DNA from: a virus | DNA length: 64,000 nt | IMG/VR virus record: IMGVR_UViG_3300025121_000038 | Coordinates: 16,999 to 80,998 of that record | Strand: one strand, 5' to 3' | In this document: positions 6,211 through 59,338 of the stretch, one piece after another | How positions within the stretch are numbered: position 1 is the first letter of the stretch | Layout of the letters: every line of letters begins with the position of its first letter | Notes under the pieces: model-generated | The model's input: the letters and a program-made list of their open reading frames with translations, nothing else | Told to the model about the DNA's origin: nothing | The model's database searches: none | Program-made: the position numbers and the translations under genes

Positions 6211-7049
6211 GAACATGTTTTCATAGTGGGTCTTACTTTTAAGACCTGTTTTCCACAAATACATACAAAATATATTTTAGGTTTCAAGTCAACATCTTTC
6301 TTTTCTTGAAGAGATTTTGCTTGAAAAGCATCATATATTATATCGAATTTTTCTGAACATAAATCTTGGAATTCTTCTATGTTTTGAGTATTACTCAATT
6401 GAGTAAGTTGTTTGTACCTAACAAACAAGAGTTTTATATCATTAGATGATAATATCCTTTGTAATTTGTCTAAATCATACGCGGAGAAAAATCCCTTTAC
6501 TTCTACATACAAATCATAATTAGGCAAATAAAAATCGGGAGCATATGTTTTTAATACATCGCTTGATGAAAGGTACTTTAGGTATACTTTTCTAATCCAT
6601 AATATACCTTTAGAGTTAAACCATTCTGCTACTTTTACTTCCCAGGTTCCTCTACATACATATTCTTCTCCTTGTATGTTTTTAATAGTGTACCACTTCA
6701 CATCTTTAAATCCACCTCCACCTTTTTCTTCCAAAAATTTAGATCTTGCTGCGGATATTTTCTCTTTAGCTTCTTTCGACATTATCTTTGTAGGTTGTAG
6801 TTTAGCTTTTTCTGATCTTTTAGCTTTAATAGAAGCAAGATTGGGGTTTAGAGAGCATTTTAAAGTATGTGCCCCCAACCGGACCCAGTCAAAAGATTGA
6901 TGGCAAAATTTACACGAATAAATATTCGAAAGCTGTGCTAGAAATACTTCTCTATGAATGGTTTTGGATTTTTGTGAGTGAGAATTATTATGGCCGCCTA
7001 ATTGGGCCACCGTATCAAAAGTTTTATCGCATTTTGAACATTTATACAT
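6135..7049 (-). CDS. Zinc-finger PD-(D/E)xK homing endonuclease, C-terminus frameshifted
   Basis: Two N-terminal C2H2-like fingers (CSKCDKTFDTVAQLGGH; CKFCHQSFDWVRLGAH) precede a lysine-rich linker and a Vsr/PD-(D/E)xK nuclease core near residues 140-200 (WEVKVAEWF, YAPDFYLPNYDLYVEVKG). A Cys cluster follows. The frame then ends early at RYKI, and the expected HTH lies in the next frame. Such enzymes cut tRNA or phage genes to spread. The start lies just upstream of a terminator, so it needs its own promoter or readthrough. Confidence 0.8.
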   Translation of the reverse strand: MYKCSKCDKTFDTVAQLGGHNNSHSQKSKTIHREVFLAQLSNIYSCKFCHQSFDWVRLGAHTLKCSLNPNLASIKAKRSEKAKLQPTKIMSKEAKEKISAARSKFLEEKGGGGFKDVKWYTIKNIQGEEYVCRGTWEVKVAEWFNSKGILWIRKVYLKYLSSSDVLKTYAPDFYLPNYDLYVEVKGFFSAYDLDKLQRILSSNDIKLLFVRYKQLTQLSNTQNIEEFQDLCSEKFDIIYDAFQAKSLQEKKDVDLKPKIYFVCICGKQVLKVRPTMKTCSQECFSKSRRRCGRPSKSTRTRYKI

Positions 7050-7066
7050 ACCCGTCCTAAAATAAA

Positions 7067-7096
7067 AAAGGGCTCTGAAATGTTTCAGAGCCCTTT
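7067..7096 (-). terminator. Intrinsic terminator
   Basis: The stem aaagggctctgaaa pairs with its complement across a 2-nt loop and is followed on the minus strand by TTTTTTATTTT. It starts immediately after the CCA of the tRNA at 7096-7181. Confidence 0.8.
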
Positions 7097-7181
7097 GGTC
7101 CGAGTCGCGGGAGTTGAACCCGCATCCAACCAGTTACCTCATTATAATGGACCGCTTATAAGACGGGAAGGTTACACTCGG
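7096..7181 (-). tRNA. Atypical tRNA, Ile(UAU)-like anticodon arm
   Basis: Encoded CCA, acceptor CCGAG/CTCGG and T-arm GCGGG-TTCAACT-CCCGC are normal. The arm CCCGT-CTTATAA-GCGGT gives anticodon UAU. Only about 8 nt separate it from the acceptor, so the D-arm is missing, and about 27 extra nt sit before the T-arm. Either remodelled or a pseudo-tRNA. Confidence 0.5.
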
Positions 7182-7225
7182 ATATTAACTTTTCTAACTG
7201 CAATCTTCTGTACACTATCAAAATC

Positions 7226-7300
7226 TGGTGACCCTAGAGGGGATCGAACCCTGCGTTACCGGATTGAGAATCCAGCGTTCTACCATTAAACTATAGGGCC
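7226..7300 (-). tRNA. tRNA-Glu(CUC)
   Basis: Cloverleaf with acceptor GGCCCTA/TAGGGTC, loop TTCTCAA and encoded CCA. Confidence 0.88.
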
Positions 7301-7687
7301 GTATTTATCTTACTTCTATATAACGTTTCTATCTTAAAAAAGTTAAGAGAGAAAAACAAAAATTCGAGAAAAATTTGAGATCGATTGGATTTTAACCAAT
7401 ACCTCGACGATGCCCCCTCGACAACGTGCGAAACTTTTAGGGTTTCTCTAGAGGCTGTCCTGTGAATAATCACCCCGTTCGCATCCTTTTTTACATCGGC
7501 TTTTCATCTATGGATAACCTTTGTTGATTATGTTTCTACCATAGATCCGAAAACTGAGGCAGTGCCCTCTACCTGTACTCTCCACGAGCTACGATCTCAA
7601 AGGATTAAAAAATCACGGTCTCCCTTAGATTGTTATTGCCAAGTCTGGTGGCCAGCCGTGACAATCAACACGTTATATGTGGGTTTT
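7301..7687 (-). other. Non-coding spacer with a decayed T-arm
   Basis: No convincing gene. A T-arm-like hairpin ATTGG-TTAAAAT-CCAAT near 7385 lacks a matching acceptor, and other short hairpins are present. Probably tRNA debris. Confidence 0.35.
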
Positions 7688-7759
7688 TGGTAGGAGAGCA
7701 GGGAATCGGACCCTGTAAACATCCTTATAAGAGACGCGTCTGCAACCAGCAACTCTCCC
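7688..7759 (-). tRNA. tRNA-Ile(UAU) with shortened D-arm
   Basis: Acceptor GGGAGAG/CTCTCCT, encoded CCA and loop CTTATAA. The D-stem TTGC/GCAG closes a 5-nt loop directly after the acceptor, and the T-loop begins TCC rather than TTC. 72 nt in total. Confidence 0.7.
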
Positions 7760-7994
7760 ATTATAACTTATCTAGCTCAACATTCCTCTGGGTTCTCCTA
7801 CATACGTATCTATTATAGCGTCCACTTATACGGGATCAACTTAATAGCCCTACCTTATGTAAAAGGTGCAATACCCCTTCTCAGAGCCTTCGTTTAAACT
7901 GCACTTGGTTCTTACTCTAGCTCAATGGCTTAATCCTCCATGTACTCACTAATGTTAGAGTAACGAAAGGTCTTAGCAAAAAGTAAGAGATTTA

Positions 7995-8177
7995 TTAAAA
8001 TCCGTCAAATTCAGGTAAAGCTTTATATTTGTCTTCTTCCATTTCTTCGACATGGATAATTAATTTACTGCTTTGACATAACTCTGTTAACTCTTGAGTT
8101 ACAAATTGTCCTATTGCATCTGCACTGGTATCTATGTAACCACCTTTTTCACTGTCTAAGACTCTATATACAATCAT
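7995..8177 (-). CDS. Small hypothetical protein, 60 aa
   Basis: The start is taken at MIVYRVLDSEKGGYIDTSAD; the longer frame upstream runs through a tRNA half. The product is acidic with an alpha/beta look. It is the first gene after the CCA of the split tRNA. No family recognised. Confidence 0.6.
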   Translation of the reverse strand: MIVYRVLDSEKGGYIDTSADAIGQFVTQELTELCQSSKLIIHVEEMEEDKYKALPEFDGF

Positions 8178-8198
8178 TTGTATTGCCTCTTTATGTTT

Positions 8199-8237
8199 TG
8201 GCGGTCCCAGAGAGAATCGAACTCTCGTTTTTTCACG
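8199..8237 (-). pseudogene. 3' half of a split Asp-like tRNA
   Basis: Contains CCA, G73, acceptor strand TGGGACC, T-arm GAGAG-TTCGATT-CTCTC and anticodon-stem strand CGTGA. These pair with the half at 9154-9183 (GGTTCCA; TCATG). The two halves are separated by about 916 nt holding an HNH endonuclease gene. Confidence 0.75.
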
Positions 8238-8305
8238 TTTTATTAATGTTATATAACAAGCAAATTTGACTTCATTTAAAATAAATCGTACATTCATGGA
8301 TAAAC

Positions 8306-9157
8306 ATGCAAAAACAATATATTAAGAGTAGGCGTAAAGATCAAAAAAGAGAGATGCTAACCTACAAAGGTGGATCATGTCAATTATGTAATTACGCGAT
8401 ATGTGCTAGAGCAATGGATTTTCATCACAAAGACCCTACTCAAAAAGACTTCGGAATATGTGGTATGAATAAATCTTGGGAAGAAATTAAGACAGAATTA
8501 GACAAATGTATTTTAGTCTGTAAAAACTGTCACGGAGAAATACACGATGGCCTTCACGACCAATTTAAAATACTCAATGTAAAAGTGCGCTCAAACTATG
8601 CTAATAGAATATATTATTATCGAAAACAATTCAAACACAATTTAGTCCAATACGCGGGTGGGTATTGTGCTATTTGTACTTACAAAAAGAGTTACAGATG
8701 TTTATCTTTTCACCATTTGAACAAATCAACAAAAACATTTGAAATAAATGAAGCTACTCAGAAAACTTTGGAAGAGATAGCAGTAGAACTTGATAAATGT
8801 ATTTTATTATGTCTAAACTGTCACTCTGAGGTACATGACGAAATTTCTGACATAAGCGATGTTAAACCAATAAAAAATCTTGAATATCTCGATATCATAA
8901 AATCTCTCATTCAAAAAGATGAAAAACCATTAATAATAGAAAAATATTATTGTTTAGATTGTAATGTGGAAAAGAAAACATCCGCCGCAAGATGTGTTCC
9001 TTGCAGTCAAAAATACCAAGAGAAAGTGAAATGGCCAGAAATAGAAGAATTGATAGAAATGTTAAAAACAAGTAATAAAGTGTTATTGGCTAAACAACTC
9101 GGTGTTTCAGAAGCTGCTATACGGAAAAGGTTGTCAAAATATATGTTCAATACATGA
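8306..9157 (+). CDS. Double-HNH homing endonuclease with HTH, 283 aa
   Basis: There are two HNH modules: CQLCNY ... MDFHHKDPTQKDF ... CKNCHGEIH, and CAICTY ... LSFHHLNKS ... CLNCHSEVH. A Cys pair region and a C-terminal helix-turn-helix (AKQLGVSEAAIRKRLSKY) follow. The gene lies antisense inside the anticodon loop of a tRNA, and its TGA overlaps the tRNA anticodon stem. It is a mobile endonuclease that has interrupted, or is carried within, a tRNA gene. Confidence 0.85.
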   Translation: MQKQYIKSRRKDQKREMLTYKGGSCQLCNYAICARAMDFHHKDPTQKDFGICGMNKSWEEIKTELDKCILVCKNCHGEIHDGLHDQFKILNVKVRSNYANRIYYYRKQFKHNLVQYAGGYCAICTYKKSYRCLSFHHLNKSTKTFEINEATQKTLEEIAVELDKCILLCLNCHSEVHDEISDISDVKPIKNLEYLDIIKSLIQKDEKPLIIEKYYCLDCNVEKKTSAARCVPCSQKYQEKVKWPEIEELIEMLKTSNKVLLAKQLGVSEAAIRKRLSKYMFNT

Positions 9158-16948: not shown

Positions 16949-17024
16949 TGGTGCCCCTCCCCGAATTCGAATCGGGACTTTACAGATTTTAAGTCTGTTG
17001 CCTCTGCCGTTGGGCTAGAAGGGC
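16949..17024 (-). tRNA. Short-arm tRNA with Leu anticodon UAA
   Basis: Acceptor GCCCTTC/GAGGGGC, A73, CCA, anticodon arm ACAGA-CTTAAAA-TCTGT, 5-nt variable loop AAAGT. It is the short-arm counterpart of the long-arm tRNA-Leu(UAA) at 5246. Confidence 0.88.
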
Positions 17025-19001: not shown

Positions 19002-19292
19002 TCATTCAGACAAATTCTTGAACCCAGGTAAAAATCGAACCCCCACCGTCGCAACAATAGAAGGTCTCCATACCATGCCACATTTTTGACATGCATGAGT
19101 ATGATGTGCTTTTGTTTCAAACTCACCCGTATCTATATGTCTTTCGCCACATGAAGGACACCATAGCAACATCGGTATAGGCCTGGACAATACAAAGACT
19201 GCCTCTGTAAGGTCTTTTAAAGTAAACAGTACAGGGGCAGTCTTAATAGTTTCTACGCCCTCAATTATCTTGCGCAGATAGTCCTGGTTCAT
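19002..19292 (-). CDS. Zinc-ribbon protein, 96 aa
   Basis: A C-terminal ribbon with [17 protein letters not shown], then [21 protein letters not shown]. This arrangement is familiar from small conserved phage and bacterial proteins of unknown function. The ATG overlaps the TGA of the EF-Tu gene (ATGA), so it is translated together with EF-Tu. Confidence 0.75.
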
Positions 19293-20482
19293 ACATTACC
19301 AATATTAGTGATCACCCCAGCCCCAATGGTACGACTACCTTCTCTAACCGCGAAGCGAGAGTTCACCTCAAAGCCAGCTGGTTTATTCAGTTCAACCTTG
19401 ATAGTAGTACGGTCACCTGGGTTGACACACTCTAACCCTTCTGGAAGAGTGATTACCCCAGTAACATCTGTAGTACCGAAATAGAATTGAGGTCTATACC
19501 CACTCTTGAATGGTTTCTCACGACCCCCTTCTTTTGCGGTCAAGGTATAAAACTCAGCCTCGAATTTTGCATTGCTTCTAATAGACCCAGGAGCGGCCAA
19601 AACTTGACCTCTCCGTATCTCGTCTCTCTTAACCCCACGGAGCAACATACCGATGTTCATACCAGCAAGACCTTCCGGTACATCTTTACGGAACATCTGG
19701 ACTCCTGTAACGACTACCTTTCTGGGTTTGCCACCCTCGTCTTCGGTAAGACCTACTATCTCAACCTCGTCTCCGATCTTGACCTTACCACGGTCAATAC
19801 GGCCTGTAGCTACCGTACCACGCCCAGATATTGTAACAACGTCTTCTACCGACATTCGGAACGGAGAGTCCATATCTCTAACAGGCTCTGGAATAGTATT
19901 GTCCAAAGCATCCATCAATTCTGGGATGGATCCGATCCAAGGGCTAGTCCAGTCTCCTGCATTAGCCGCTTCAAGAGCCTTAAGAGCGGATCCTCTCACG
20001 AACTTGACATCAGTATACCCATAGCTCTCGAGGATTTCGTTTGCTTCCATTTCTACGAGAGACAAGAGCTCTTCGTCTTCACAACGATCAACTTTGTTCA
20101 CGAAAACAACGATATGCTTTACCCCTACTTGAGATGCAAGCAATACGTGTTCCTTGGTTTGGGGCTCAGGTCCTTGAGATCCATCGACCAAAAGTATAGC
20201 ACCGTCCATCTGAGCAGCACCCGTGATCATGTTCTTGATGTAGTCAGCATGTCCTGGACAGTCAATATGTGCATAATGTCTGTTCTTTGTTACATACTCT
20301 ACGTGAGCGGTATTGATTGTAATACCACGAGCTTTTTCTTCAGGAGCTTTATCTATTTGATCATAGTTAAGGGCTTGCCCACCATGTTCTTTAGCCTGTA
20401 TCTTTGTGATAGCTGCCGTAAGAGTGGTTTTACCATGGTCGATGTGACCTATACTTCCGACTGTTAACATTACTCTACCCAT
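19289..20482 (-). CDS. tuf: Elongation factor Tu (phage-encoded)
   Basis: The 397-residue product matches bacterial EF-Tu (about 394 residues) along its whole length. Signatures: G1 GHIDHGKT, switch [12 protein letters not shown]3 DCPGH, G4 NKVD, G5 SALKAL, then domains 2 and 3 ([39 protein letters not shown]). It should deliver aminoacyl-tRNA to the ribosome. I take the start at [13 protein letters not shown], preceded by GGAG; an upstream extension is possible. It differs from host-like EF-Tu in [16 protein letters not shown] and has a short N-terminus. It keeps the RGITI region cut by the Lit protease. Confidence 0.96.
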
Positions 20483-20583
20483 CTTTTTCTCCAAATTTAA
20501 TTTACCACAGAACAACTAACGGATAATAACAATATTCCTTTTATGAAGTACTTCATCGAACCTAAAATTCATGGAGACTTCAT

Positions 20584-28488: not shown

Positions 28489-31400
28489 TTAATAAGAACG
28501 ATCTTGCACTCTTTCTAAGTGTACAACGTACAGTACTCTTATTCTACTTACATCTGCAATTGCATACTCAGCGTCTCTACCGCCATATCCATTATTGTCT
28601 ACTTTCTTGGGCCAGTAAACGCTATCATACCCGGCTGAGTTCCAAGACCTCTTTTGATGATCGTTTTTGTCATTTAAGATCAAACAATTACCTAAATCTA
28701 CTTCACAAATTAAAAAGGCTCCGGATTCAGTATATACCCCAAACCCACCGCTGATATATTGAGCACTCTTGCTTCCGCAATCTGTAAAATATATACCATC
28801 CCCCAACATTCTACCGCTCTTCGCGGTAGTCATGACTTTGAAATGATTTTGTATAATTAATCCAGCTGCAAAGTAGTGAGTGCCATGTATCAATGTTTTT
28901 ACATTTGTAGTGGGGTTTTTCCTCTTCTCATATTCTTTTTGAGGAGGGTTAACAACCTTAAATACACTTTTGATATTTGGTTTGATACCTCGATCTGCAC
29001 CTTTCCAGGTATCCTTTATGAATTTTTCAATCTTATCATGTTCATCGTTAGCTACCGCGTCTATTCTAACCGTAGATTTAGATGCGTCTGCTTCTGGTTT
29101 AATAAAATCAAAAACTCTAAGAGGATTTGATAATAACCATCCTCGAATGTCAGTATCCGACGCACGTTCAAGGGACATACTGAACAATTCTTTGTGCGTG
29201 ATAGTCCTAGATTTGGATTTGATAAGATTCAAAAACTCAGAGGTCTTGCTAGAATCATTAGTTCCAAGAGTAAATTCTGTATCTAAAGGAGCTGATAAAG
29301 GTATGGCTCTTTCTACTAAACTTTGTAGTAATGTTTCTGTGGTACTTCTGTTATTGGTCTCATCAAGCCATTTTTCTTTAGCAGACTGAGTCTTTAAGCC
29401 ATCCCAATAATCTAGTACACTTCCAATTTTCTCTGAGCGAACTCTACCAGACCCATTGAATTTTTCATTTAAAGGGGCTGAGTCTATCTTAGTGACTATA
29501 GGAATCATGTCCAGAGTAAACTGCTTCTTTCTTAATTTGAACTCCTTAGACAACAAGAATGTTAGCAAAATATTTTTGAAGTCTGAGTCTAGATCCAATT
29601 TTTCAAGAAAGGCTTCTCTCACCTTAGGACCAAAAGTACCTTGTACTTCGTAATAATATTTGAAGAGATCTAATGTCTGTGTGGAGTCAGCCCTCTCAAT
29701 CATAGATGCTTTAGTTCTAGTATCCTCTGTAACATAAGATGGGTTTGGCCATTTTACACCCTTAACTTCCATAATACCTTTACCACGCATATATTCTATC
29801 ATGCCAGGTAAGCGTGTGTCAAATTCCCATTTCGGACATGCCTGTATTAAAAGGGTTCTAGAGTTTGTATCAAACTCCCACAAAAAGTCTAAAAGCTCTT
29901 TGGATCCATACTGTACAACTGCCATTTTAAACCCAAAATTTACAGATTTGGATTTCAAAAAATTGGTCAGTACCGTATGAGAAGCGGTATCTAGTGCTGT
30001 TGTACCAGGCTTCCATAAGAGGTTTGCACAAGAAACGGGATCTTGATTTGTAATAGCTTCTGTTATCAAATCAGAATGACTATGTTCTTTCTCTTTTTCT
30101 CTTAAGGTCTGCCTACGTCTCAATTCTTCTTCAAATCTTCCTCTCGGACCCCAACCTAACTCATAATCTTTAGACGCTTTTACAAGGTCTGCGTCATCTA
30201 CCGCAGAAAGCCATACAGGGTGTTTAACATAAAAGCTAAAACATACATCTACTAAATCTCGGAATACCGGGAAAAGTGGTAGTATTGGGGACCTGTACAT
30301 ATCCCAAATAGGGAACCTTGAAGTTAGTTCGGTGAGAGATAAATTATCTAGTATAAATCTACAGTTATTCTGTCCAATATTGTAAAGATCTTTATCCTTT
30401 AAAGATACGATCCGCATCACAGTATTGGGTCCGAATGGTCTCATAGATCTTATGCAAGCTTGTACATCTAAAGTTGTAGCATTACCAAGAGCCAGAGCCC
30501 CTAACGCTGACTTAAATTGGTCATCCGACATCTTTAATACAGCTTCATCAAATCCAATTAAAGATGATTGCCAATTCCCATCCATACGATAGGAATAAGA
30601 ACTAGCCATTCGTTCTAAATGTGCGTTCAGATACATTGGGGCGTTTTCAGCAAAATCATCTCTACCAAAAACACCATTTATTATTGGGTTAGAGGATGCG
30701 GTTATTGTACTCACAACAGTATTAGAGTCTACTCCAATAACTGCTGCTGCTTGGATTAAGTGTGATGAGGATCCAATATAATTGGCGGCTATATCAGGCA
30801 TTGTACGTATGATACAAGCTATAGTAGCATCTCTAGTGTCTGGTCCTACCTCTCTGACTACGGCTCTATCTTCTAACAGAGACAAAATATACTGTTTATC
30901 TGTTTTAGAGAATTCAGTTATTCTGTTGCAAATTTGTGAAATTAATTTATATTTAGACTTCTTAACTTGTTTGATTAACTCATCTGGCGGTATATTGTTA
31001 CCTACCCATGCTTGTATACCATCAACCTCTATGTCCAATAATTCCAAATAATCTCCAGGACGTAATCTAGGCAGAACTACTTCAAGGACATCTCTTGTAT
31101 AATAGAACATATTATGCATGGTCAAAAATTTAGCTAAAGTAGCTACAGACGCTCTTCTTGCTACACATATATCAATATCGGATGATCTGCTATATCTTGT
31201 CAACAAGGCATACTTATCTACTAATTTGTCAGGATCTAAACATTCGAAATATTGCAATAACTGAGAGGAAGACATACTATTGATATCTGAGTATCTTCTT
31301 TCCATTTCTTCAGCTTTTACCTTCAAGCCCTTTGATTTCAACTCTATCGCATCTGACAATTTAGCATGTAAAGGGTCGGATGCATCTACAGACTCTTGCA

Positions 31401-32931
31401 AAACGTCTATATATTTAGACGGCAAAAAAGTAAATAACCATATGTGAACCGGATTAGATGAAACACGCCATATATCTGAGATATAAGCAAGAGACCCACC
31501 CGGATAAGACCCTAAACTATTTTCTAAATAATCTATGAATCCTTTCTTAAAAGTAGTCTCTTCAAGGAAGAGTATGTCTTCTCTAGACAATTTTTGGAAA
31601 AAAGTAAGAAACAAATTGAGGTCTACTGCACTACGAGACCATCTATCAGCTCTTACAGCTTTGATTATCTCACCCCAAGGTCTTCCAAAGATGCTGTTTA
31701 TGAATGTCGCATCTTTCACAAGATTAGCTTTTAACAAGGGTTCTATTTCTGCTCGGGTACAGTCAAAAAGCCACAATACTTCAAGGTTTCTATCACTGTT
31801 ACCATTACGTACAATTTCATTGAATAAAGTTATTCTCTCCGGCTTAGAGAGTCTGTGTATTAATGGATCTGGATCGGGAGCGTAACCCCATATTTGGGAG
31901 ATTTGTGCATTTGTCCACCGTTCTGGACTTACTACAATCACAGCAGCTTTATAAAAATCAGAATTAGCAAACAAACTGTAATCCATCATCTTAAGAGTTA
32001 GACTCTCTCTTCCTTTTAGGAGCGTTTTATAAGTTGCTTCCCAGTTTTTCGGAAACTTAGATCTCCAGCCGTAATTCCCTAAAGTATATCGTAGATACTC
32101 AAATAATATATCATCTTTGAGTTTAGAGAAATTACCTACTGTTACAAGTCCATTTGCCTCATACTTAGGCATTAAATAACCTTGCATGTATCCACGAGCA
32201 AACAAGGCACTTAATACACTCTTATCACCTTCATCTGCTATGGTCGCTAAATTCTTTAATGTCTGATCATCTGTAGTATGTTGAGCAAGGTATAATCTAT
32301 CGCCTTTGGACATTACCCGTATATCAGCTAAATCCGCTATAAAGTTAGTTGGGATACCAGTTTCTGTCGGCTGTGGAGCAGAAGCCACCATTTTGTCTAG
32401 GTCCAACAAAATCATATCCAACATTCTTCGTATGCGTGGGTTACGGAGATTATCTAAGGACTCAATCAACTGTAGCTCTACATCTTTGTTAGGAACAGAC
32501 CCATTCCTGAAATAAATCGTTGCAGGAATCAATACAGCTCTTAACTTAGGAACATGGACATGTTTAATATCATCTCGTATAGATGTGAATATTCTCTTTA
32601 GAGAAGGAGCATGATAGTTACCCGCTGCAACACGGGTCTGCACTTGATCAAATAAAGCTTTTACTTCTCCATACTCACCTGGATTCAAAATACTTTGGAG
32701 GAACTCATAAAACTCTGTAGAATTATTCTCCAAATGCTTGTATCTATTCATAGTGGTTATGAATTGACTACCATTGTAGAGAGTAGTAGCGTCTATAGAC
32801 TTTGAGTCATTTTTATAGAAATCAGACTTCGAGAATATGTACAATATCGCCAAGAATTGGACTATTTCAATCCACTCTGATCTATATTGATCAATTGGGT
32901 GTAAAGAAGGATCAACAGCTACTTTATTCAT
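28489..32931 (-). CDS. 1480-aa protein with C-terminal PARP-type ADP-ribosyltransferase domain
   Basis: Residues about 1335-1480 carry the PARP fold: LIHGTHYFAAGLI (His), LGDGIYFTDCGSKSAQYI (Tyr), and DAEYAIADVSRIRVLYV (Glu before the last strand), an H-Y-E type triad. The first 1300 residues are helical, without transmembrane segments, and look like alpha-solenoid repeats. It would transfer ADP-ribose from NAD+ to unknown targets in host or phage. The size suggests it may be packaged and injected, but nothing here shows that. It overlaps the next gene upstream by 4 nt. Confidence 0.85.
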   Translation of the reverse strand: MNKVAVDPSLHPIDQYRSEWIEIVQFLAILYIFSKSDFYKNDSKSIDATTLYNGSQFITTMNRYKHLENNSTEFYEFLQSILNPGEYGEVKALFDQVQTRVAAGNYHAPSLKRIFTSIRDDIKHVHVPKLRAVLIPATIYFRNGSVPNKDVELQLIESLDNLRNPRIRRMLDMILLDLDKMVASAPQPTETGIPTNFIADLADIRVMSKGDRLYLAQHTTDDQTLKNLATIADEGDKSVLSALFARGYMQGYLMPKYEANGLVTVGNFSKLKDDILFEYLRYTLGNYGWRSKFPKNWEATYKTLLKGRESLTLKMMDYSLFANSDFYKAAVIVVSPERWTNAQISQIWGYAPDPDPLIHRLSKPERITLFNEIVRNGNSDRNLEVLWLFDCTRAEIEPLLKANLVKDATFINSIFGRPWGEIIKAVRADRWSRSAVDLNLFLTFFQKLSREDILFLEETTFKKGFIDYLENSLGSYPGGSLAYISDIWRVSSNPVHIWLFTFLPSKYIDVLQESVDASDPLHAKLSDAIELKSKGLKVKAEEMERRYSDINSMSSSQLLQYFECLDPDKLVDKYALLTRYSRSSDIDICVARRASVATLAKFLTMHNMFYYTRDVLEVVLPRLRPGDYLELLDIEVDGIQAWVGNNIPPDELIKQVKKSKYKLISQICNRITEFSKTDKQYILSLLEDRAVVREVGPDTRDATIACIIRTMPDIAANYIGSSSHLIQAAAVIGVDSNTVVSTITASSNPIINGVFGRDDFAENAPMYLNAHLERMASSYSYRMDGNWQSSLIGFDEAVLKMSDDQFKSALGALALGNATTLDVQACIRSMRPFGPNTVMRIVSLKDKDLYNIGQNNCRFILDNLSLTELTSRFPIWDMYRSPILPLFPVFRDLVDVCFSFYVKHPVWLSAVDDADLVKASKDYELGWGPRGRFEEELRRRQTLREKEKEHSHSDLITEAITNQDPVSCANLLWKPGTTALDTASHTVLTNFLKSKSVNFGFKMAVVQYGSKELLDFLWEFDTNSRTLLIQACPKWEFDTRLPGMIEYMRGKGIMEVKGVKWPNPSYVTEDTRTKASMIERADSTQTLDLFKYYYEVQGTFGPKVREAFLEKLDLDSDFKNILLTFLLSKEFKLRKKQFTLDMIPIVTKIDSAPLNEKFNGSGRVRSEKIGSVLDYWDGLKTQSAKEKWLDETNNRSTTETLLQSLVERAIPLSAPLDTEFTLGTNDSSKTSEFLNLIKSKSRTITHKELFSMSLERASDTDIRGWLLSNPLRVFDFIKPEADASKSTVRIDAVANDEHDKIEKFIKDTWKGADRGIKPNIKSVFKVVNPPQKEYEKRKNPTTNVKTLIHGTHYFAAGLIIQNHFKVMTTAKSGRMLGDGIYFTDCGSKSAQYISGGFGVYTESGAFLICEVDLGNCLILNDKNDHQKRSWNSAGYDSVYWPKKVDNNGYGGRDAEYAIADVSRIRVLYVVHLERVQDRSY

Positions 32932-33935: not shown

Positions 33936-34100
33936 CTAACTTTGAGTGACTTTAGGCGAGGCGATAGGATTTTTTGGTACAGCAACAAGTGCTGGTTCTG
34001 GTTCATATTGTTTTACTTCTGGCTGATCAGTCTTTATATAAGATCTATTCACGAATGTACGAGGCGGTCTTAGTATCTTGCCACCTTTTTTATCAGACAT
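33936..34100 (-). CDS. Small basic protein, 54 aa
   Basis: Starts MSDKKGGKILRPPRTF with GGAG 8 nt upstream. Proline- and lysine-rich and probably unstructured. It directly follows the gene at 34103. Function unknown. Confidence 0.6.
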   Translation of the reverse strand: MSDKKGGKILRPPRTFVNRSYIKTDQPEVKQYEPEPALVAVPKNPIASPKVTQS

Positions 34101-34102
34101 TG

Positions 34103-34327
34103 TCAACTCCAATTTACAGCAGTATGTATATTTTCTATAGGCTCTATTTTAGAAAAGTGATCTATAGCATCTTGTAACAGGTCTATCATTGTTTGTGGAC
34201 TATATTGAGTACTTACTATCCAATTGCCTGTATCAGAGTCCACATAAAACTTGATCAAACTATCATATGGGATCTGTTGACCGTTGATTTCAACAAACTT
34301 CTGCTTTCCTTTTTCAAGCTCTCGCAT
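34103..34327 (-). CDS. Hypothetical protein, 74 aa
   Basis: Starts MRELEKGKQKFVEINGQQIP; a small alpha/beta protein with SQ/NW-rich strand region. No family recognised. It precedes the 54-aa gene with 2 nt spacing. Confidence 0.6.
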   Translation of the reverse strand: MRELEKGKQKFVEINGQQIPYDSLIKFYVDSDTGNWIVSTQYSPQTMIDLLQDAIDHFSKIEPIENIHTAVNWS

Positions 34328-34411
34328 ATCGTCTCCTTATAGAGACAAGCGATTACAAACAGATTAGGCTTCAGCAGGATTTTAGGTTTTATGCTTCTGT
34401 TCGAAAAGATC

Positions 34412-34792
34412 TCAGACTTTGGATAAGTCTGCTATTTGCTGACACACCAGGATCAATTCTGAAATAGAATTTGACAAGTCATCATATGTAGAATCAATAA
34501 TGAACTCTCCCCCTATACGTTTTACTTTAAACCTGCTACAAATTTGCTCTATAGCCTCGCCCTTCTCACAAAGAGCCTTAAAGTCAATAAACACGTTTAA
34601 CAAATAAGAAATAGTATGTCCAAGGTCAGTCAATAAGATTTTATCTCTCTGGTCCAAAAATAAATCTATGTTATCCTCATCAGGATACAAGAACGGAGTT
34701 TGCATCCTCAACATACCATTAGCTATAATGTCACATTTGACTACTAATGATTCAGAGACAAAATCATGTATGTTATTACAGGTAATCAGCAT
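34412..34792 (-). CDS. Hypothetical protein, 126 aa
   Basis: Starts MLITCNNIHDFVSESLVVKC and contains YPDEDNIDLFLDQRDKILLTDLGHTISYLLN, a pattern close to DUF1828-type proteins that sit beside nucleases or restriction-like genes. The match is from memory. It overlaps the upstream gene by 7 nt. Confidence 0.6.
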   Translation of the reverse strand: MLITCNNIHDFVSESLVVKCDIIANGMLRMQTPFLYPDEDNIDLFLDQRDKILLTDLGHTISYLLNVFIDFKALCEKGEAIEQICSRFKVKRIGGEFIIDSTYDDLSNSISELILVCQQIADLSKV

Positions 34793-45629: not shown

Positions 45630-45704
45630 GGTGCCCCTGGTGGGTTTTGATCCCACTGCCTTGGTATTTAAAGTACCTCGCTCTTCCAATTGAGCTACAG
45701 GGAC
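45630..45704 (-). tRNA. tRNA with ochre-reading anticodon UUA
   Basis: A well-formed cloverleaf: acceptor GTCCCTG/CAGGGGC, A73, D-arm GCTC-AATTGGAA-GAGC, anticodon arm GGTA-CTTTAAA-TACC with U33. Anticodon UUA pairs with UAA. The body resembles tRNA-Lys, whose loop CTTTTAA differs only slightly. T-loop ATCAAAA is unusual and CCA is not encoded. It stands alone, outside the arrays, and overlaps the end of the gene at 45695. Confidence 0.75.
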
Positions 45705-49796: not shown

Positions 49797-50279
49797 TCAG
49801 AGAGAATTTCGAAGAATTGTTAAACATTGGTCTAAATGGTCTGGGGTAAGTCCTCCAAGATAATGTGTCTTTAAGAAATGAGGTAGTTGCTCATCTAACA
49901 TATCGTCACTATCATCAAGAATAAGATAAGTGGTAGTCCTGTTATGATCATCTCTCCATTTTTTAATCTCATCTCCACGTATCTTACCGTAGGTAGGGGT
50001 CCTGTCCACTATCCTATGTGTATGTGTAAGACCTCCTTGAGTACTAAACCCACGTCGTATTTCTTCTAAGGTATGTATCTTACGCCAAGCAGAAGAAATG
50101 ATAAGATTAGCAGGACATTGGTCCAAAATCTGTTGTAGTATTGCTACATTACCTGGGTCGAACCCATACAGCTTGGAGCTTTCTACAGGCCACCGTTCGA
50201 CGGTAAGCCAATGTTTATTGAACACCCCGTCTATGTCTACAAAAATGTCAGGAAGAGACGGGTCTAGCACATAATTCAA
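49797..50279 (-). CDS. HAD-family phosphatase-like protein, 160 aa
   Basis: DIFVDIDGVFN is HAD motif I (DxDGV), LIISSAWRKI motif II, and GDEIKKWRDDHN ... LILDDSDDM motif III/IV. It resembles HAD domains linked to RNA repair proteins. It lies next to an RNA ligase, suggesting a 5'/3' end-healing role before ligation. Confidence 0.8.
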   Translation of the reverse strand: MNYVLDPSLPDIFVDIDGVFNKHWLTVERWPVESSKLYGFDPGNVAILQQILDQCPANLIISSAWRKIHTLEEIRRGFSTQGGLTHTHRIVDRTPTYGKIRGDEIKKWRDDHNRTTTYLILDDSDDMLDEQLPHFLKTHYLGGLTPDHLDQCLTILRNSL

Positions 50280-53764: not shown

Positions 53765-54589
53765 CTATTCTGGAAGTAGTAAGGTCACTCTCTTCTCTAA
53801 ATCCTGTGGAAGTTTATTCTGAAAATGTTTGATGACCTCTTCTCTGGTATACCTAGAAGAAAAATGAGTGAACAAAATATGTTGATTCTGTAGATCAGAA
53901 GCCCTCTCAAGTATGTGGTCTATGTGTATATGTCCGTGTTTACGAGCACCTTCTGCCGTTACTCTCTCATACTCCAAAAAAGTGACTTCTAGGATTAACA
54001 CTTTAGCTTGTCGGACAAGAGGCTGGTCTAATACATCAATAGCAGTATCTCCACAGAACACAGCTTCCACTTCTTTTATTTCTTGAGTTACAGTAACACC
54101 TTTAAGTCTCAAATCACGTATCACATTAGAGCTAAAATCTCTAAGTTCCGGAAGCAACTGTTGTTTCTTGGATACTAAAGCGTACCCTAAAGATGGTGTA
54201 GTATGATAATTTTGGAAGGTATGTATCTCTTTACTATTATCCAAAGGTACTACATCACCTACATCTAAAGGGTGTATTGCACATTCTAGATCAGATCCAT
54301 TTAATCTTCTCCAAACTGAGAACAAATCTTTCAAATCTTGTTCTTTAGGTCTAGGAAGCCAATACTCTGTAGGAGTCATTCGTTTCAATTCACGGGTAGC
54401 ACAGTGCATTTGCACTCCACCCATGTGATCAGAATGACAATGTGTAAAGAATACTTTTGGAAATTTAGTAGAGAATAATGGACAATGTCCTATGTCAAAA
54501 CATAATTTCCAGGCGGGAAAACCTATACAAGTTTCCCACCCTCCAACAGATATAGCTTCGATGTTTTGATTGCCTAGTGTTAATTTCAT
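53765..54589 (-). CDS. RNase Z-like metallo-beta-lactamase, 274 aa
   Basis: MBL motifs FFTHCHSDHMGG (residue 49), EAVFCGDTAID (about 190), VTFLEYE and the late IDHILERA ... LFTHFSSRYTREE are characteristic of the tRNase Z branch. RNase Z trims tRNA 3' ends after the discriminator when CCA is not encoded, which is true of many tRNAs here. So this phage may process its own tRNAs. Confidence 0.85.
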   Translation of the reverse strand: MKLTLGNQNIEAISVGGWETCIGFPAWKLCFDIGHCPLFSTKFPKVFFTHCHSDHMGGVQMHCATRELKRMTPTEYWLPRPKEQDLKDLFSVWRRLNGSDLECAIHPLDVGDVVPLDNSKEIHTFQNYHTTPSLGYALVSKKQQLLPELRDFSSNVIRDLRLKGVTVTQEIKEVEAVFCGDTAIDVLDQPLVRQAKVLILEVTFLEYERVTAEGARKHGHIHIDHILERASDLQNQHILFTHFSSRYTREEVIKHFQNKLPQDLEKRVTLLLPE

Positions 54590-56023: not shown

Positions 56024-56077
56024 ATGTCCTCTTAATGCATTTTTAGAGGATGAATATAAAAACACTATGGAACAAAA

Positions 56078-56109
56078 AAGGCCGTCTGGTGTAAAAACCA
56101 GACGGCCTT
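56078..56109. terminator. Strong intrinsic terminator
   Basis: aaggccgtctggt pairs with its complement around a 6-nt loop, followed on the minus strand by TTTTTT. It ends the transcript carrying the tRNAs at 56144-56501. Confidence 0.85.
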
Positions 56110-56143
56110 CAAATTATCTCTGTACAAGTTTAAAGAGCTGTGT

Positions 56144-56229
56144 CTTTTTAAGACAGCTTTATGGCTGTTGCCTTTTCCAGTTAGGCTACTTCCCCAAATT
56201 TTAGTGGGGAAGGAAGGATTCGAACCTCC
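56144..56229 (-). tRNA. Circularly permuted tRNA-like locus
   Basis: On the minus strand the order is T-arm GGAGG-TTCGAAT-CCTTC, 3' acceptor CTTCCCC-A, a 9-nt linker, 5' acceptor GGGGAAG, D-arm GCC...GGC, anticodon arm ACAGC-CATAAA-GCTGT and variable arm CTT-AAA-AAG. All parts of a long-arm tRNA are present, but the 3' part comes first. The acceptor strands pair perfectly. The 6-nt anticodon loop suggests decay from a tRNA-Leu(UAA). Confidence 0.5.
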
Positions 56230-56235
56230 ATATTT

Positions 56236-56427
56236 GTGTATGCTCTAGGTGTAGTACAGAGAAACCTTAAAAATTTACTTTGTGCAAATTTACAGTGCTA
56301 TGAGCGACCTTAAAACCTACTCCGAGGTTTTAAGGTCTAAACATATATCCGTGTTTTTGTATGCACCGTATGAGGCACAAAGTTTGGTAGCGAGAGGTTG
56401 GAATCGAACCAAGTATCCGCTATATTA
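56236..56427 (-). other. Structured spacer with tRNA 3' remnant
   Basis: Includes a perfect 12-bp hairpin (gaccttaaaacc) at about 56309-56340. At 56385-56425 there is a 3' tRNA remnant (T-arm TTGG-TTCGATT-CCAA, CCA) without a 5' half. Confidence 0.4.
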
Positions 56428-56501
56428 ATGCGGCAGAAAGAATTGAACTTTCGTCATTGGCTTATGAGGCCAAGCTGGAACCACCTCCAGTCTATGCCGC
56501 A
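56428..56501 (-). tRNA. tRNA-Met or tRNA-Ile2 (CAU)
   Basis: Acceptor TGCGGCA/TGCCGCA, anticodon arm TTGGC-CTCATAA-GCCAA, D-stem CTGG/CCAG. CCA not encoded. The CAU anticodon does not distinguish Met from lysidine-modified Ile. Confidence 0.85.
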
Positions 56502-56548
56502 TTAATAGAAACATTATTTCTTAAATAAAGTTAAATTCAGATCCAAAA

Positions 56549-57386: not shown

Positions 57387-58421
57387 ATGGCTATACCAGA
57401 AAATTTACGCGTCTATTCTAGAAAAGCGGAGACATTCAACATCCATAGTCTCGACGAGACGGTAAAGGCTCGTAAAGGTTTCGCAGTAGATATCAAAAGT
57501 AAAAATTTCCAGGCAACTGCAAGCAACTGGAGTCAGTCTATAACCCATCTAGCTCCTACCCTAAATAGATTCCAAGTTCTATTTGAAGAGGATGGAGACC
57601 TGTCAGAAGATACTCCCAACACTCCCATCAAGCTTAGGTTAGTGAGTCTTGAACATAGAGGTCAAGGTGGTAGGGCTTATAAGGTCGTCACAGAAACCGG
57701 TTACATTTATGATTTCAGAGAAGACGCTTTGATGGATGTTCTAACTACTGTTGGGGTAAGTCCAAAAGGACATTTGAACGGAGAATTTGTTTGGGCTTCT
57801 ATTGGTGCTCAGATGAAACTTATCCTTGTAGGTGGGAAAATTTGGAAGTCTTTCCAAAAAGACAAAGCAAGACAAGAAACCAAGAAAATAGATAACAAAG
57901 ACCTAGAAGTAGGTTGTGTTTACGAAACAAAGAACGGGGGTAAGACATTATTCTTAGGGTGGGGTCATACAGCTTTAGCTCCTAACAAGAAGGTTGGGGT
58001 ATGGAGAGGCATCGCAGGTTCTAGACGTGAGTGGGATCCTCAAACCAGAGAGATAAAGTATATTGAACTAACACCAGAGGAGGAGGTTGGTGATTTAGAC
58101 CCTATTATAGGGTCTAGAGATGTCATAAAGAAAATATCTGGGCCACATGACCTATTCATAAACAGGTTCACAGACATAAGAGAACCTGGTATACGACAAT
58201 TTGTTCGTGAATACGAACAAGAAATATCAAGAAGGTACAACATATCTGATCATTGGGGTAGACCTGCCAATAGAATACCCCCAACTAAACAGGACTTTTT
58301 CCAAAGTCAAATAAATAGTACATGGGATAGAAAGAACGTTTTGAGAGCGACTTTATTTCTTAGAACAGAACCTATTGTCATAGACCCAAGGTTGGTAGAT
58401 TTCTTCCCGCCTAAAGTATAA
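57387..58421 (+). CDS. Hypothetical protein, 344 aa, paralogue of the gene at 46907
   Basis: Starts MAIPENLRVYSRKAETFNIH with GAGG upstream. Shares FAVD...LAPTLNRFQVLFEED, RGQGGRAYKVV and LNGEFVWASIGAQMKL with the minus-strand gene at 46907. The two differ in the middle. One of only two non-endonuclease genes on the plus strand. Function unknown. Confidence 0.75.
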   Translation: MAIPENLRVYSRKAETFNIHSLDETVKARKGFAVDIKSKNFQATASNWSQSITHLAPTLNRFQVLFEEDGDLSEDTPNTPIKLRLVSLEHRGQGGRAYKVVTETGYIYDFREDALMDVLTTVGVSPKGHLNGEFVWASIGAQMKLILVGGKIWKSFQKDKARQETKKIDNKDLEVGCVYETKNGGKTLFLGWGHTALAPNKKVGVWRGIAGSRREWDPQTREIKYIELTPEEEVGDLDPIIGSRDVIKKISGPHDLFINRFTDIREPGIRQFVREYEQEISRRYNISDHWGRPANRIPPTKQDFFQSQINSTWDRKNVLRATLFLRTEPIVIDPRLVDFFPPKV

Positions 58422-59181
58422 AAGCTTGATGTCTACGTACCGCTCCTTTAAATCCCGCACCACTAACATCAATATCCACGGGTACTTTTGTATAATGCAT
58501 CAAATAAGTTTTCTCTTTGATGTCCTTCGGAAGGGAGCATAAATCTTCATAATGAGTATGTACCGTACCTAGATATTTGGGTCCAAAGGTACAGTCATGA
58601 AATATGACATCCGCATTAAACAGTCCACATTGAGGATTGAAGATAGTATCTGAAGTGTAGTAAGCTGTTTTCTCCCCTTGTTTTAAGTATATCCCAAAGG
58701 ATGGTTTGTCAAAATTATTGCCTACCACATGTTCTGTTTTATGGAACCGAAATTGTACCCCGCCAAACTCAAACCATGTTGTCGGTATCTCTTCAATTAG
58801 ATCCTTACTACCTGTATTCTTAATGGTTCCATCCTGTGACGTATAATAATCTATACAGCTTGACAGGTATGGGGCAACATCTTTCAAGACACTGGGGGGA
58901 GACCATACTGTTACGCTTTTCCAGCTCGGGCCTAATAAGCCTGTATAATAGCTTTCCCAAATAAGTTGCTCAAGACCGCCTACATGGTCGCCATGCATAT
59001 GAGTCAAAGCGACTCCAGCTATTTCCCAAGGACGAATACCTAATTCTTTGAGGCTTTGTACGGCTGTAGAACCACAATCTATCAAAACCCATCCTTCAGT
59101 GGTTTCTACTATGACATTGTTGTGGTAGTTGTCTCTGTAATCAGTAAAGGCACCACCAGTCCCGAGGAATATTATTTTCAT
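58411..59181 (-). CDS. Metallo-beta-lactamase-fold hydrolase, 256 aa
   Basis: The start is taken at MKIIFLGTGGAFTDYRDNYH. THMHGDHVGG is the metal site; YYTSDTIF and FHDCTF the later ligands. The first residues recall RNase Z-type openings (FLGTGG), but the later FTHFSSR block seen at 53765 is missing, so substrate is open. It converges with and overlaps the plus-strand gene at 57387 by 11 nt. Confidence 0.8.
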   Translation of the reverse strand: MKIIFLGTGGAFTDYRDNYHNNVIVETTEGWVLIDCGSTAVQSLKELGIRPWEIAGVALTHMHGDHVGGLEQLIWESYYTGLLGPSWKSVTVWSPPSVLKDVAPYLSSCIDYYTSQDGTIKNTGSKDLIEEIPTTWFEFGGVQFRFHKTEHVVGNNFDKPSFGIYLKQGEKTAYYTSDTIFNPQCGLFNADVIFHDCTFGPKYLGTVHTHYEDLCSLPKDIKEKTYLMHYTKVPVDIDVSGAGFKGAVRRHQAFIL

Positions 59182-59266
59182 GTCGTATCTCCTTTTGTGT
59201 TTCGAGAAATATGACAACAAAAATGAGAATGGATTGTGAAAGAGATTATTTATTGGATATTTAGAG

Positions 59267-59338
59267 AGCACCTACTCAGATTCGAACTGAGGCTACATCT
59301 TTACGAGGGATGAGTTCTGCCCATTAAACTATAGGTGC
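59267..59338 (-). tRNA. tRNA-Thr(CGU)
   Basis: Acceptor GCACCTA/TAGGTGC, T73, loop CTCGTAA, no encoded CCA. Confidence 0.85.

Follow-up and report, generated by a model that had tools for sequence, protein, structure and literature searches.

A permuted tRNA-like locus in a phage tRNA cluster as a candidate Y RNA-like tRNA mimic

Does a locus in which the 3' half of a transfer RNA (tRNA) precedes its 5' half encode a tRNA, the remains of tandem tRNA genes, or another kind of RNA? The question is raised by a unit on the minus strand of a 64,000-nucleotide (nt) stretch of viral DNA (IMG/VR record IMGVR_UViG_3300025121_000038, positions 16,999 to 80,998; hereafter the window), part of an 81-kb phage contig. 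An earlier note, drawn from the sequence alone, had placed a circularly permuted tRNA locus at 56144-56229 and had named decay of tandem copies as another possible origin. We find that the permuted layout is neither chance nor tandem decay, and that the RNA probably handles or decoys the tRNA-acting machinery instead of decoding codons.

The unit reads T-arm, 3' acceptor strand, 9-nt linker, 5' acceptor strand, D-arm and anticodon-like arm. The minimum free energy (MFE) fold confirms the permuted order and the complementarity of the acceptor strands (7/7 Watson-Crick pairs). But the limits 56144-56229 are too narrow: the flanks pair with each other as two helices, A and B, which gives a gene of about 145 nt at 56117-56262 on the minus strand. 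The features of the locus, in 5' to 3' order, are:

56427..56502, minus strand: ordinary tRNA-Met (CAT), upstream of the unit
56254..56262, minus strand: 5' strand of helix A, the outer stem, TCTCTGTAC; 9/9 pairs with 56117-56125, covarying in the family
56247..56253, minus strand: 5' side of the internal loop, TACACCT; site of the Rsr motif in YrlA, which is absent here
56242..56246, minus strand: 5' strand of helix B, AGAGC; 5 base pairs (bp) with 56134-56138
56230..56241, minus strand: junction before the T-arm, ATACACAAATAT; family consensus YUACAMGCAAUAU
56213..56229, minus strand: T-arm, GGAGG-TTCGAAT-CCTTC, in the MFE fold
56206..56212, minus strand: 3' acceptor strand, CTTCCCC; A73 at 56205, no CCA
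56196..56204, minus strand: 9-nt linker CTAAAATTT, closing the acceptor hairpin
56189..56195, minus strand: 5' acceptor strand, GGGGAAG; 7/7 Watson-Crick pairs with 56206-56212, followed by TA and the D-arm
56170..56186, minus strand: D-arm, GCCT-AACTGGAAA-AGGC, with the GG of the elbow, in the MFE fold
56153..56168, minus strand: anticodon-like arm, ACAGC-CATAAA-GCTGT, with a 6-nt loop, in the MFE fold
56139..56152, minus strand: junction after the anticodon-like arm, CTTAAAAAGACACA
56134..56138, minus strand: 3' strand of helix B, GCTCT, pairing with 56242-56246
56126..56133, minus strand: 3' side of the internal loop, TTAAACTT; ..CACUC in the family, AAAACUU in YrlA
56117..56125, minus strand: 3' strand of helix A, GTACAGAGA, pairing with 56254-56262
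56077..56110, minus strand: intrinsic terminator directly 3' of the unit (14 pairs, 8 of them G-C, and a T tail)

The tRNA-Met and the permuted unit are probably carried by one transcript. The MFE fold of 56112-56262 (-48.3 kcal/mol) consists of exactly these arms and helices A and B. It has a z-score of -5.97, and 0/200 shuffles fold equally well; the duplex of the flanks alone (helices A and B) reaches z = -4.1. No unit of equal quality was present in 60 dinucleotide shuffles of the window. Thus the fold, the pairing of the flanks, the shuffle tests and the terminator uphold the observation, for a unit larger than first described.

Is such a unit unique to this phage? When IMG/VR was searched for an identical 21-nt piece of the T-arm and acceptor, the matches listed included several contigs with the permuted order, besides ordinary tRNA-Tyr and tRNA-Ile. 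Broader patterns and a small scanner raised this to at least about 35 units in about 30 contigs, and overall the family has members in at least about 35 phage contigs, many of them large; some contigs hold two to five units whose acceptor stems differ. As the search patterns fixed GGGG/CCCC and TAGYC, these unit counts are lower bounds and members with other acceptors are under-counted. The least biased test of the acceptor fixed only GGGG/CCCC and scored the remaining three pairs: of 31 unique sites, 30 had standard pairs at all three places and 27 had Watson-Crick pairs throughout, where chance would give 5%. In 84,980 prokaryote genomes the acceptor pattern occurs at 2 sites, one being tandem tRNAs and the other a YrlA-like permuted unit (L210, 1473-1606) on a small contig of a Micrococcales metagenome-assembled genome, of bacterial or phage origin. 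Thus, within the reach of the pattern, the permuted layout is largely a phage feature.

A covariance model, R1, was built from the MAFFT alignment of 13 relatives, the window sequence being excluded. It recovers the window unit over its full length at 100.3 bits (E = 1.2e-29; E-values of the model are rough), and its runner-up in the window, at 31 bits, is a set of ordinary tandem tRNAs. Elsewhere, matches to tandem tRNAs or split neighbours can score up to about 58 bits, and therefore only clearly higher full-length matches are sure members. In the 13 relatives (plain MAFFT, six-helix structure, without the window) 23 of 31 pairs are changed on both sides, and the covariation score is 0.501 versus 0.173 for shuffles and at most 0.127 for slid controls. 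With 39 members (at least 57 bits), aligned by fitting to the model, double changes affect 29/31 pairs and the score is 0.777 versus 0.182; the last row of this alignment, L008 (57.3 bits), comes from elements joined by chance around a unit in normal order. Two stretches of residues recur in the family: the junction that leads into the T-arm reads YUACAMGCAAUAU (AUACACAAAUAU in the window), and the internal loop has ..CACUC on its 3' side (TTAAACTT in the window).

Other search routes were less productive. The motif TACAMGCA followed by a T-arm, taken as a key, gave mostly the anticodon loops of ordinary tRNA-Val(UAC), with some new members. The 393-amino-acid open reading frame downstream had no match in an IMG/VR search for neighbour proteins, and BLAST hits in cultured phages were mostly T-arms of ordinary tRNAs. 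One cultured phage, Gordonia phage GodonK (MK620899), has two unannotated permuted tRNA-like units at about 81.4-81.7 kb (L226, 3995-4200), in a gap of its tRNA cluster.

These data bear directly on decay, by which tandem tRNAs would have lost sequence so that a 3' half came to stand before a 5' half. The window is rich in tandem tRNAs and holds an orphan tRNA 3' half at about 56386-56425. But six helices covary across about 39 sequences, the flanking arm is conserved, the leave-one-out search gives an E-value of 1e-29, and only 2 sites in the 84,980 prokaryote genomes show the pattern, one of them a real Y-like unit. Decay is contradicted by this conservation and we hold it to be highly improbable.

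If the layout is genuine, does it mature into a tRNA? RNase P and a 3' endonuclease would then open the acceptor hairpin, leaving a giant or trimmed variable arm, and the pieces would be held by the outer helices, as in two-piece transfer-messenger RNA (tmRNA), or sealed by RNA ligase or RtcB. The complementarity of the acceptor in 30/31 unbiased sites fits this scheme, as do the existence of relatives in normal order (one genome having both orders) and the RNA ligase and RtcB encoded by the phage. CCA also follows position 73 in 17/30 units, and T occupies -1 in 25/30. Once joined, the window sequence passes in ARAGORN as a tRNA that lacks a regular anticodon.

Against this scheme, the window loop CATAAA has 6 nt, and therefore no regular anticodon, where a 7-nt loop with U33 would be regular. 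In the family, 28/37 loops have 7 nt and 9/37 another length; among the 22 clean, perfect-stem loops U33 is found in 14 and another base in 8, versus U33 in 290/300 ordinary tRNAs of the same loci; on our reading, U33 is present in about 1 of 9 relatives with normal order. The window unit has CTA where 30/42 ordinary tRNAs of the window encode CCA, and across the family the presence of CCA shows no link with the CCA habit of the phage (p = 0.23), so that CCA is not supported as a sign of maturation. Finally, the outer arm is conserved in structure and in sequence motifs instead of being removed. Loop length, the frequency of U33 and the independence of CCA from phage habit therefore make decoding unlikely in the family, and its 6-nt loop and CTA make it less likely still for the window unit. 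Maturation of the locus into a tRNA thus finds no support, and we consider a true permuted tRNA gene improbable. Single members having U33 and CCA could act as tRNAs. A self-splicing or ribozyme nature of the arm was considered too and set aside, the arm having no Rfam ribozyme or intron match.

What known RNA does the unit resemble? Rfam matches among the relatives were named YrlA, a bacterial Y RNA (RF02553); in YrlA an Rsr-binding basal stem carries a tRNA mimic made of D, T and acceptor arms (PMC8394870). Its Rfam consensus runs outer stem, internal loop (3' side AAAACUU), second stem, CUAC, T-arm, acceptor hairpin, UA, D-arm. The window unit likewise has an outer stem made from both ends, an internal loop, a second stem and the permuted series of T-arm, acceptor hairpin, UA and D-arm, with TTAAACTT and AUACA where YrlA has A(A)ACUU and CUAC. 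It also has an RNA-repair neighbourhood, and bacterial Y RNAs occur in rsr-yrlBA-rtcBA RNA-repair operons (PMC7790460). Judged by this comparison, the locus works like a Y RNA in its architecture.

Some members stand close to a gene for a TROVE protein; the phage TROVE profile matches the solved structures of Ro60 and Rsr. A member scoring 62.4 bits in contig G028 (9007-9160, plus strand) lies 376 nt behind a TROVE gene (6868-8631, plus strand). Contig G002, which also carries a TROVE gene, holds distant relatives that match YrlA over its full length at 61.7 and 54.8 bits. The Rsr-binding motif in the 5' strand of Y RNAs is reportedly GNCGAANG; at its place the G002 units have GACGAATG, and the L016 units nearly so.

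Several results weigh against a kinship with Y RNAs. On the window RNA, RF02553 scores 23.7 bits (gathering score 69) and aligns only to the tRNA-like part; partial matches of this kind (model 30-81) were dropped as evidence because ordinary tandem tRNAs and control genomes match likewise. The window 5' strand lacks GNCGAANG and has TACACCT instead. Unlike YrlA, the window unit has an anticodon arm after its D-arm, and the family a conserved UACAMGCA junction. We know of no Y RNA in ordinary tRNA order, whereas such family members exist. No TROVE, DUF2828 or vWA MIDAS motif was found in the 81-kb contig, the TROVE model being insensitive; with the same insensitive model TROVE was found in 3/44 contigs searched, and most family contigs, some above 300 kb, have no TROVE or DUF2828 match. 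With no Rsr motif in the unit and no Ro-type gene found in the 81-kb fragment, we do not file the locus as YrlA.

The absence of TROVE nevertheless says little, as divergent phage Ro proteins escape the model; the TROVE Pfam model also misses Listeria phage P100. By size and place, P100 gp165 corresponds to the protein of phage CKA15 called Rsr-like by HHpred (PMC12282133), and by eye it resembles DUF2828. An hhalign comparison of phage TROVE with DUF2828 aligned the vWA part only (93% probability, E 3e-7). P100 (L209) also has a YrlA-like unit at about 36020 (minus strand), some 3 kb from gp165, and a ROOL RNA at 34073-34624 (86 bits); unexplained abundant RNAs are reported from the corresponding part of a P100-related phage (PMC12282133). 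In Vibrio phage BUCT194 (L076, 5.3-5.7 kb) a tRNA 3' half, a long-arm unit and a 5' half are interleaved directly before a DUF2828 gene. Y RNA or Ro proteins are known or proposed in phages (PMC7765460, PMC12282133, PMC7824862), and PMC7824862 also mentions large phages that carry RNA ligases and TROVE.

The same observations may be read as a phage-specific tRNA-like family unrelated by descent to Y RNAs, for instance a sponge for anticodon nucleases or tRNA-modifying enzymes, its likeness to YrlA being convergence. The lack of TROVE or DUF2828 in most family contigs would suit it, as would an Rsr motif that is not kept, an anticodon arm and a UACAMGCA junction foreign to YrlA, and several copies per phage with differing acceptor stems. 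But the internal-loop residues, the order of elements and the TROVE-adjacent members fit the Y RNA pattern, and the absence of TROVE counts for little with the model used. We regard an unrelated family as unlikely.

The explanation that we favour, and consider reasonably probable, is that the locus encodes a Y RNA-like tRNA mimic, with a closed-acceptor head and a protein-docking stem, which functions as a tether or a decoy. A non-coding RNA of about 145 nt would be transcribed with the tRNA cluster and end at the terminator 56077-56110. Fold, covariation and family show that its head imitates a whole tRNA (T-arm, acceptor, D-arm and anticodon-like arm) and that its 5' and 3' ends form the two-helix stem with the conserved internal loop. 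The acceptor would be kept closed as a hairpin, so that the RNA would be uncharged and non-decoding, in keeping with its 6-nt loop, its lack of CCA and the loose constraint on base 33. The stem would dock a protein, most likely a Ro60/Rsr-type ring that comes from the host or is encoded in a part of the phage genome missing here; the head, shaped like a tRNA, would be offered to a tRNA-acting enzyme. YrlA tethers PNPase, and the head could be a tether of this type. Or it may be a decoy for tRNA-cleaving defence nucleases, close to the RNA-repair genes of the phage. For a phage that encodes over 40 tRNAs the decoy version is plausible; YrlA itself has been proposed as a competitor of an anticodon nuclease (PMC7790460).

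How could a permuted mimic arise? Relatives in normal tRNA order are present in L003, L008, L105, L137, L151 (a weak case), L163 (twice), L203 and L206. Their acceptor strands are about 96-111 nt apart and the Y-type arm takes the place of a giant variable arm with a short capping loop. L008, which was found by the acceptor pattern, carries the junction AUACAAGCAUUAU, and the shared motif is therefore not merely an artefact of selection. The homology of the two orders rests on shared motifs and architecture, the MAFFT alignment of the normal-order relatives being poor outside the junction and T-arm. Since both orders lie close together in contigs L163, L105, L137 and L206, these sequences suggest a circular permutation between the two forms. 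It is tentatively possible that there is one phage RNA family with two natural circular permutations. The first form would have an open acceptor and the Y-type stem as a giant variable arm (L003, L008, L105, L137, L163, L203, L206); the second, that of the window and most members, would have the acceptor as a closed hairpin and the Y-type stem open. Y-type tRNA mimics would have arisen from a tRNA with a protein-binding variable arm, and large phages would keep both forms as decoys or adaptors in RNA repair and counter-defence.

The genome around the locus encodes part of the machinery that the earlier note had attributed to it. An RNA ligase is indeed present (PF09414, 50358-50981), beside an RNA-repair protein of the HAD_SAK_2 type (49797-50279). 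The supposed RNase Z-like enzyme at 58411-59271 (minus strand) has a metallo-beta-lactamase (MBL) fold and matches Apyc1, an anti-Pycsar phosphodiesterase, instead. A further feature of this kind is:

53765-54589: second MBL-fold protein

RtcB is found in the contig of the window and in 8/15 family contigs; here it lies left of the window (G000:C1:4830-7070), in a frame of 798 codons and interrupted by an insert.

Other features of the region were recorded. The orphan tRNA 3' half (minus strand, CTTGG-TTCGATT-CCAAC-CTCTCGC) comes just after tRNA-Met; no 5' half was found nearby, and a 12-bp hairpin is next. A tRNA with anticodon TTA (45630-45704, minus strand, 57.2 bits) reads the UAA stop and is a possible ochre suppressor. 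The tRNA cluster includes a complete phage EF-Tu with all three domains (19289-20515, minus strand), and a 1480-amino-acid protein (28489-32931, minus strand) has a PARP catalytic domain near its C-terminus.

Two traits are new: a complete anticodon arm on a Y-type mimic, and relatives in ordinary tRNA order with a giant variable arm. Standard tRNA finders and Rfam miss this RNA family, though it recurs, often with several copies to a contig, among dozens of tRNAs and RNA-repair genes. Its description would extend Y-type tRNA mimics to a complete cloverleaf and tie them to phage RNA repair, and it warns that seemingly permuted tRNA genes of phages may be mimics and not tRNAs. The normal-order relatives could show the origin of permuted tRNA mimics; if the two orders are permutations of one family, Y RNA-type mimics would derive by circular permutation from a tRNA whose variable arm binds protein.

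How does the locus compare with known systems? It shares with the algal and archaeal permuted tRNA genes (PMC3978253) a 3' half placed before the 5' half and complementary acceptor strands. Unlike them, it has a conserved non-tRNA arm and an anticodon loop free of decoding constraint; no bulge-helix-bulge junction was recognised by eye at the locus. Among bacterial RNAs, two-piece tmRNA (RF04321) likewise has its T-arm and 3' acceptor ahead of the 5' acceptor. RF04321 gives a weak match of 20.1 bits (gathering score 47) in the T-arm and acceptor region, but the window unit has a 4-bp D-arm stem and an anticodon-like arm and no tag reading frame, and no tmRNA in the window was reported by ARAGORN; we find it barely credible that the unit is a permuted tmRNA or the remnant of one. 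The literature searched did not contain the RNA family of the window, and the phage Ro60 and Y RNA sets on record differ in being of the short-head type or proposed only. With these sets, known or proposed from mycobacteriophages, Listeria P100-like phages and the jumbo phage pir03, the locus has in common a Y-type RNA near a tRNA cluster.
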